From contig JAJRTK010000088.1 of assembly GCA_024278345.1 (NCBI GenBank), positions 1-18,764 of the forward strand: 18,764 bases of DNA. The letters run 5' to 3'. Positions 1-18,483 of this stretch are shown here, one piece after another. Every line of letters begins with the position of its first letter. The stretch's first letter is position 1. Source of the stretch: a bacterium. GTDB lineage: Bacteria > CSSED10-310 > JAJRTK01. Below the pieces are notes generated by a model. That model ran no database searches and was not told where the DNA came from. It worked only from the letters and a program-made list of their open reading frames with translations. A program made the position numbers and the translations under genes.

Positions 1-325
1 AAGAGCTTGCCAGGGTGAAGGTGGTGGTCATCGACATGTCAAAGCCCTATGCAGCGGCAGTCAAGGCACTGTTTGGAGAGGATGTCCTGGTCATTGACCG
101 CTTCCACGTGGTCAAGAATGCTGTCGATGCTCTGGACGAGGTGCTCAGAGCAGTTGGCAGGGAGTTGGACAAAGACGAGAAGAAAGAGCTCAAGAAGCTC
201 CGTAGACGCTGGCTCAAGGCCGATGATCAGCTCGACATGGAGCTTTGGTTGGCGCGGCAGAGCTGGTTGAAGCGTTTCCCCAAACTCAAGGAGGTGATTG
301 ACTGGATACAGGACTTGAGGCAGTG

Positions 326-334
326 GTTCAAGCG
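326..334. repeat. Left 9-bp target-site duplication of family 1 copy 1
   Basis: GTTCAAGCG directly abuts the left end of the miniature element and is repeated exactly at 536-544. The flanking bases beyond each copy differ, so the repeat is exactly 9 bp. One copy belongs to the original transposase reading frame. Confidence 0.85.
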
Positions 335-535
335 GGCCTTGGTCATAGTACCGGCCACGGTGCAGATTTCAGACGCCGCCCCAGGGCTTCCAGCCCTGGA
401 ACCGGGCGGAGGCTCTGCCTCCGGACCTCCGCTGGGAGCGCCGCTCCCAGACCCACGCCAGGGAGCCAGCTCCCTGGACCCACATCTTTGTGCGCTGCGC
501 GCTTTTTTCGGGTGGCCCGTACCATGACCGAGGCC
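335..535. mobile_element. Miniature inverted-repeat element, family 1, copy 1 (201 bp)
   Basis: Nonautonomous element inserted in the transposase. The 9-bp direct repeat GTTCAAGCG lies at 326-334 and again at 536-544. The ends are inverted repeats of 24 bases, starting GGCCTTGGTCAT on the left and GGCCTCGGTCAT on the opposite strand at the right, with four mismatches. The interior is a string of short palindromes: CCAGGGCTTCCAGCCCTGG, CGGAGGCTCTGCCTCCG, CTGGGAGCGCCGCTCCCAG and CCAGGGAGCCAGCTCCCTGG, followed by a T-rich tail. There is no coding capacity. It is about 87% identical by eye to copy 2 at 3212-3412. The autonomous partner that would move it is not in the window. Confidence 0.85.
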
Positions 536-544
536 GTTCAAGCG
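536..544. repeat. Right 9-bp target-site duplication of family 1 copy 1
   Basis: Second copy of GTTCAAGCG, directly following the right end of the element. Joining this copy to the sequence left of 326 recreates the uninterrupted transposase codons for WFKRKYT. Confidence 0.85.
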
Positions 545-834
545 CAAGTATACGAAGCCCGCACGCAAGGCTCTTCAGAAGCTGATTGAGCGGGCCGCGG
601 CATCGGCAACTCAGCCATTGAATCGCATGTCCGGGACATTGAGCAGGTGGTTCGAGCCAATCTTACGGTATATCCGGAATCGATACACGAACGGCCTGAC
701 CGAGGGACTCAACAACAAATTCAAGTTGATTCAGCGGATGGCGTTTGGAATCCGAAATGAGGCAAATAGAAAGAAACGCTTTCTAGCCTGGTGTGGGGCG
801 CCTTGACGCTTGGCCTCAAAGATGGCGAAGAGCC

Positions 835-3202: not shown

Positions 3203-3211
3203 CGTTGAGTT
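3203..3211. repeat. Left direct repeat flanking family 1 copy 2
   Basis: CGTTGAGTT, repeated exactly at 3413-3421 on the other side of the 201-bp element; interpreted as target-site duplication. Confidence 0.78.
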
Positions 3212-3412
3212 GGCCTTGGTCATCGTTTCGGCCACCCTGCAGAATCTCAGGCGCCGCCCCAGGGCCTCCGGCCCTGGAACCCGGCGGAGGCTCCGCCTCC
3301 GGACCTCCGCTGGGAGCGCTGCTCCCAGACCCACGCCAGGGAGCACGCTCCCTGGACCCACATTTTTGTGCGCTGCACGCTTTTATCGGGTGGCCGAAAC
3401 GATGACCACCAC
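3212..3412. mobile_element. Miniature inverted-repeat element, family 1, copy 2 (201 bp)
   Basis: Same size and order as the copy at 335-535. An 18-base stretch of the terminal repeats is perfect: GGTCATCGTTTCGGCCAC on the left and its exact complement at 3390-3407. The element is flanked by CGTTGAGTT at 3203-3211 and 3413-3421. It contains four consecutive short palindromes, including CCAGGGCCTCCGGCCCTGG and CTGGGAGCGCTGCTCCCAG, and a T-rich tail. It lies between the stop codon of the sulfotransferase and the start of the methyltransferase, so it is transcribed within that small operon if transcription passes through. The right outermost five or six bases differ from copy 1, leaving the true duplication at 8 or 9 bp. 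Confidence 0.82.
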
Positions 3413-3421
3413 CGTTGAGTT
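3413..3421. repeat. Right direct repeat flanking family 1 copy 2
   Basis: Second CGTTGAGTT. It overlaps two bases of the sulfotransferase stop codon (complement of TTA at 3420-3422), so the insertion left that stop intact. Confidence 0.78.
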
Positions 3422-4517: not shown

Positions 4518-4752
4518 GGATATCCGGGTATCCACGCAAGGCGGGACATTCCCAGGACCGTGGAATCGAAAGCGTCCGGGCAACGCCTCGCTGTTGCTTG
4601 GCGGTCGTCCGGGGACGCTGTCCCCCGTCCCCTGGCAGGGCTTCGCCCTGCACCCACCAGGGAGTTACCTCCCTGGACCCGCGTTTTTGTACGCTCCGCG
4701 TCTTTTTTTGGTTTGGTTGCGTGTCCCGGCTTAGGTGGATGCCCGGATATCC
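4518..4752 (+). mobile_element. Family 2 miniature inverted-repeat element, copy B (235 bp)
   Basis: The ends are 31-base inverted repeats with about four mismatches: GGATATCCGGGTATCCACG on the left against GGATATCCGGGCATCCACC read inward from the right. The interior carries hairpins GGGGACGCTGTCCCC, GGCAGGGCTTCGCCCTG and CCAGGGAGTTACCTCCCTGG, then GGACCCGCGTTTTTGTACGC and a run of seven T. The right-hand module from CCAGGGAG through the T run is shared with family 1, although the ends are unrelated. I found no flanking direct repeat, so this insertion may be old or the boundaries slightly different. No coding capacity. Confidence 0.72.
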
Positions 4753-18247: not shown

Positions 18248-18286
18248 TCTGACTTTCCGAGCAATCCACCCAAGGCGGGACAATTC
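18248..18286 (+). repeat. Remnant of a family 2 terminus
   Basis: CTGACTTTCC followed by ATCCACCCAAGGCGGGACAA matches, with small changes, the terminus of copy A read on the minus strand (CTGACCTTTCC then ATCCACGCAAGGCGGG). Nothing of the hairpin interior remains downstream. Confidence 0.55.
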
Positions 18287-18337
18287 ATTGTAGCCACCTA
18301 CACCCCGCAGAACCCCGGCCCTGGAATCCGGCTGCGG

Positions 18338-18357
18338 GGCCTTGGTCATCGTACTCG
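18338..18357 (+). repeat. Remnant of a family 1 terminus
   Basis: GGCCTTGGTCATCGTACTCG shares its first 15 bases with the left end of the 201-bp element at 3212-3412. No second end or direct repeat was found nearby. Confidence 0.5.
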
Positions 18358-18483
18358 CCAGGAACCCGGCAAGGATGTGGCACAATCGCCCTCGACTGCG
18401 ATGAGGCGGAAACGACACAACAGGCACCAGCGATACCAGTGACCGAAGGGGATCCATCCAGAAGCCAGTGAACCCGGCCAACC

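Follow-up and report, generated by a model that had tools for sequence, protein, structure and literature searches.

The reading frame of an ISL3-family transposase at the start of contig C5 of a bacterial genome (G000; 6.06 Mb, 550 contigs, 87.9% complete) is broken by a short segment rich in palindromes, which raises the question of what this segment is, whether it is mobile and which enzyme could have moved it. The original prediction, made on the 18,764-bp stretch referred to here as the window, placed a 201-bp palindromic repeat between identical 9-bp repeats, with boundaries defined to the base. Both flanking stretches read GTTCAAGCG, and the coordinates hold as claimed (Table 1).

When the flanks are joined, leaving out the element and one of the repeats (210 bases), a single open frame results (...DLRQWFKR/KYTKPARKAL..., the slash marking the junction). 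The joined frame matches PF01610 (DDE_Tnp_ISL3) unbroken, with its residues 3–185 on profile positions 53–235 (E 1.4e-48), so that the predicted in-frame restoration of the transposase is borne out. Uninterrupted relatives, which were sought in other genomes, are also available: in 247 plasmid records ISL3 homologues span 80% or more of the joined protein at an identity below 60%, and the aligned homologues cross the junction without an insert. Taken together, the element, its target-site duplications (TSDs), the restored frame and the plasmid alignments lead us to regard the observation as real at these positions. The "exact excision" of the original prediction stands as an insertion, while the excision itself was carried out only on paper: no site that the element had left was observed, and an empty version of the ISL3 site does not occur naturally in the genome as assembled. 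Likewise, the proposal that the repeat moved after the insertion sequence arrived is upheld for the gene, not necessarily for the present place of the insertion sequence in the genome. Since the contig start cuts the ISL3 gene, the 5' part of the insertion sequence is not visible. Directly past the apparent end of the ISL3 element, positions 834–849 of the window (AAAAATGTGGGTCCAG) match the reverse complement of the repeat's core; possibly, then, the ISL3 element was in turn inserted into a copy of the repeat.

The element starts with GGCCTTGGTCATAGTACCGGCCAC and its opposite end is the imperfect reverse complement, giving terminal inverted repeats (TIRs) of 24 bp. Its core consists of stacked GC-rich hairpins, whose predicted folding exceeds that of shuffled sequences (z −5.4 as DNA, −7.1 as RNA); a search of the window against Rfam gave zero matches. 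Copies are short (174–249 bp) and carry no transposase gene. We describe it as a MITE, a non-autonomous DNA transposon, bounded by TIRs and containing a row of hairpins, which fits it better than the term palindromic repeat. GC-rich hairpins and a high copy number would also fit a REP- or REPIN-like palindrome that a REP-associated tyrosine transposase (RAYT) has dispersed, an origin that we consider very improbable, as long TIRs and precise 8–9 bp target duplications are, to our knowledge, not expected for REPs. Repeats of the REP/REPIN kind would be expected to lack a target-site duplication, whereas here duplications of 8–9 bp are present (on REPs and REPINs, see PMC2817692 and PMC3116915).

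Table 1. Positions of the features discussed in the text (window coordinates, except for the intron sites)
Feature	Position	Strand	Evidence or remark
MITE copy, 201 bp	335–535	+	42 BLAST matches in own genome; 98.0% identity to 15-copy consensus
Target-site duplication, left copy, GTTCAAGCG	326–334	+	sequence
Target-site duplication, right copy, GTTCAAGCG	536–544	+	sequence
Left TIR, GGCCTTGGTCATAGTACCGGCCAC	335–358	+	TIR matches in genome
Right TIR, reverse complement, GGCCTCGGTCATGGTACGGGCCAC	512–535	−	TIR matches in genome
Core hairpin 1, CCAGGGCTTCCAGCCCTGG	381–399	+	sequence; fold z −5.4 DNA, −7.1 RNA
Core palindrome 2, CGGAGGCTCTGCCTCCGG	407–424	+	sequence; predicted fold pairs part of palindrome differently
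Core hairpin 3, CTGGGAGCGCCGCTCCCAG	432–450	+	sequence; fold
Core hairpin 4, CCAGGGAGCCAGCTCCCTGG	458–477	+	fold; absent in 174-bp copy of C58
Terminator-like stem, GTGCGCTGCGCGC, then TTTTTT	490–508	+	consensus match only
Second MITE copy, other subfamily, 202 bp, intergenic, right TIR end eroded	3212–3413	+	89% identity
Target-site duplication of second copy, left, GTTGAGTT	3204–3211	+	sequence
Target-site duplication of second copy, right, GTTGAGTT	3414–3421	+	sequence
ISL3-family transposase gene, part before insertion	3–334	+	gene start outside contig
ISL3-family transposase gene, C-terminal part after insertion	545–806	+	stop codon 804–806
Apparent group II intron sites	L074 (C128) 1–246; L069 (C32) 19–153; L067 1930–2049; L096		

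Besides the BLAST matches given in Table 1, a genome search with the TIR at a tolerance of up to 3 mismatches yielded 115 forward and 118 reverse matches, compared to 0 for the reversed-pattern control, which corresponds to ∼115 dispersed MITE copies. Fifteen full copies that were sampled show 95.5–99.5% identity to their own consensus. The core varies by blocks: next to the 201-bp form there are a 174-bp form, in which one hairpin is absent, and a 249-bp form with ∼48 extra bases. When the bases immediately adjacent to 50 left ends on the outside were set against those adjacent to 49 right ends, there were 16 exact 8-bp duplications common to opposite ends (0.04 expected) and 4 exact 9-bp duplications (0.01 expected). 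Hence the family duplicates 8 bp and sometimes 9, and the 9 bp of the window copy represent the rarer size (4/20). The expectation that further copies would be flanked by 9-bp direct repeats is accordingly right for 4 of the 20 end pairs, while most (16/20) have 8 bp. The TIRs, the TSD, the restored frame and the dispersed near-identical copies, in combination with the recurrent exact duplications, support, at the level of sequence, a mobile element that entered an ISL3 transposase gene which was there before it.

An assembly or misjoin artefact, in which the assembler set repeats beside chance 9-mers, would have to account for the same picture. The assembly is indeed fragmented: many contigs stop ∼140 bases inside a MITE copy, presumably due to the assembler being unable to pass the repeat. 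Several copies are present in the assembly without a matching duplication; they could be misjoins, or may be recombinants. Nevertheless, taking out the window copy rebuilds a conserved gene to the base, and duplications of 8 or 9 bp are found repeatedly at complementary ends, including ends on separate contigs, far above chance, which makes an artefact hardly credible. A second gene-level case is found in C507, where a 249-bp variant of the MITE with the TSD TCGCTTTC interrupts a DUF6399-type pseudogene. At 18338–18361 the window contains a degenerate stretch that resembles the TIR with 3 mismatches; no second end lies near it, and it may be what is left of an eroded copy. In 144 other genomes, the element DNA had one weak match only, of 33 bases, so among the genomes searched the MITE seems restricted to this lineage. 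The MITE family is new, of a known kind.

A MITE depends on a transposase supplied elsewhere, and its ends lead to fragments of genes for DUF6399 proteins in the same genome. In C96 the TIR GGCCTTGGTCATAGTACCGGCCA lies ∼300 bp before a stretch coding for an N-terminal HTH (MPRENATPVRLQ...), which is broken by another repeat; further copies of this left end are found in C206 and C36. In C80 a match to residues 517–555 of the DUF6399 protein adjoins a TIR of the same type, GGCCTTGGTCATAGTACCGACCAC, and the 5' end of the MITE resembles this C80 end for ∼15 bases beyond the TIR. Judged from sequence, the left end in C96 and the right end in C80 are candidate ends of the same element or of separate ones. 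Additional DUF6399 gene fragments are present in C387, C188, and C507. The search of this genome (88% complete, 550 contigs) turned up DUF6399 fragments but not one complete element, and the present source of the transposase is thus unseen in the assembly. A transposase-like ORF beside a MITE in C33 was also considered as partner and rejected, as it appears to lie within DNA inserted in a MITE copy. This 423-codon frame (L076, 39–1310), which is transposase-like by eye, had zero matches among the Pfam and NCBIfam families.

The N-terminal DUF6399 fragment alone found no relative in 84,980 genomes and no match in plasmids. A profile made from the pseudogene pieces, with two pseudogenes in the alignment, led to L124, an intact relative from a Chloroflexi MAG; it is a 590-codon frame that matches PF19936 with an E-value of 1.9e-44. 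This gene is bounded by the TIRs GGCGTTGGTCATCGTTTCGGCCA and by an exact 8-bp TSD, CCGAGCTA. A second intact DUF6399 gene resides on plasmid pTs417 of Ca. Thiodictyon syntrophicum (L130, WP_100918590.1), here with the TIRs GGCCTTGATCATAAATCCGGCCA on the left and GGCCTTGATCATCGTTCCGGCCA on the right and the exact 8-bp TSD GTCCAACC. In both elements the TIR type and the duplication size match those of the MITE. Other DUF6399 fragments, both in the genome of L124 and in a relative of the same phylum, a member of the Schekmanbacteria, likewise have TIR-like ends beside them. No TIR pair of the MITE kind was seen at three further DUF6399 genes: L131 and L132, which are more distant and lie on cyanobacterial plasmids, and L133, a partial gene from a Methylomonas plasmid. 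Neither viral contigs nor phages yielded a DUF6399 match; the TIR pattern had 18 single matches in viral contigs, which we took as chance in view of no convincing TIR pair. The literature search returned no paper on DUF6399 or on transposases of Schekmanbacteria.

The MITE could alternatively be mobilised by a different transposase, e.g. of the ISL3 or IS256 type, with the DUF6399 fragments as passengers or co-residents. Duplications of 8–9 bp are not unique to one family: ISL3- and IS256-type transposases also make them, and 8 bp is the size known for ISL3. The assembly, as described, is one without a complete DUF6399 element. In contrast, the apparent end of the ISL3 element in the window is GGCGAAGAGCC near 823–833, whereas the MITE end is GGCCTTGGTCAT by direct reading, so like ends do not place the MITE in the ISL3 family (PF01610) to which the interrupted gene belongs. 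Furthermore, the MITE TIR adjoins DUF6399 ends in its own genome and, in two unrelated bacteria, flanks intact DUF6399 elements on either side, with exact 8-bp duplications. We therefore consider a different transposase unlikely, and regard the DUF6399 protein as the likely mobiliser of the MITE and probably as the transposase of the elements that share its TIRs.

Pfam lists DUF6399 (PF19936) as a domain of unknown function; the proteins are annotated only as DUF, and no transposase family of Pfam or NCBIfam matches them above cut-off. Four DUF6399 proteins have D156, D210, D230-x-F-H233, and E481-G-R-N-G as invariant residues, a pattern that suggests a DDE transposase; by eye, the D-x-F-H and E-G-x-N motifs are similar in ISL3. 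When the profiles of DUF6399 and ISL3 transposases were compared, no match across the catalytic region reached significance; a search for a relative with a solved structure found none, and a single-sequence structure model of the L124 protein was too poor to use (mean pLDDT 45.7). The tentative DDE assignment is thus drawn from the conserved residues. It is likely that DUF6399 proteins are the transposases of an IS family unnamed in Pfam and NCBIfam, with TIRs of approximately 5'-GGC(C/G)TTGGTCATCGTTYCGGCCA, an 8-bp TSD, and MITE derivatives that can number more than 100 copies per genome.

We propose, with a probability of roughly 0.88, that the element is a high-copy MITE that is moved in trans by a DDE-type DUF6399 transposase with the same type of TIRs, and that broke the ISL3 gene upon insertion with an 8/9-bp TSD. 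A full-length element with these TIRs would encode the DUF6399 protein and supply it in trans, and the transposase would recognise the MITE through its ends. The MITE would then be inserted at a staggered cut, by cut-and-paste or by copying and with the chemistry of a DDE enzyme, resulting in a target duplication of 8 and sometimes 9 bp. One such insertion would have landed in the ISL3 transposase gene.

Another repeat family, whose ends differ from those of the MITE (GGGTATCCACGCAAGGCGGGACA...), occurs in the window at 4518–4752, 1090–1240 (inverted), and 18253–18287. It has the hairpin core CCAGGGAG..CTCCCTGGACCC..TTTTTGTGCGC in common with the MITE, as if cores had been exchanged between the two, and is also the repeat that breaks the DUF6399 gene fragment in C96 (L096). 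Apparent group II introns are situated just past hairpin 4, at CTCCCTGGAC/CCACAT, in at least two MITE copies (Table 1), and L069 and L067 match Rfam RF00029. In L067, an element end with a MITE-type TIR is itself inserted in the intron. Group IIC introns are known for hairpin-directed insertion, which the placement after hairpin 4 resembles.

Correia, RUP, and Nezha are bacterial MITEs, and together with the hupL MITE they share features with the present family: they are short, carry no transposase, have TIRs and a TSD, reach very high copy numbers and interrupt genes. The hupL MITE of Ca. Thiomargarita nelsonii was reported to have 10-bp direct repeats and to match 260 of the 439 contigs (PMC4853749). 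The present MITE differs from these in its TIRs and sequence and in its GC-rich hairpin core that varies by blocks, as well as in having a transposase family that can be put forward as its likely partner. The DUF6399 elements (WP_100918590.1 and L124) have the TIR type and the 8-bp duplication in common with the MITE, but are ∼1.8–1.9 kb long and contain the full gene.

A transposon inserting into a transposon is ordinary in itself. From a single odd repeat, the analysis leads to a well-bounded MITE family of ∼115 copies with a likely partner, and to an explanation for the strong fragmentation of this assembly, many of whose contigs stop within the element. The link to DUF6399, the most interesting part and a new lead, offers a testable function for a domain of unknown function.
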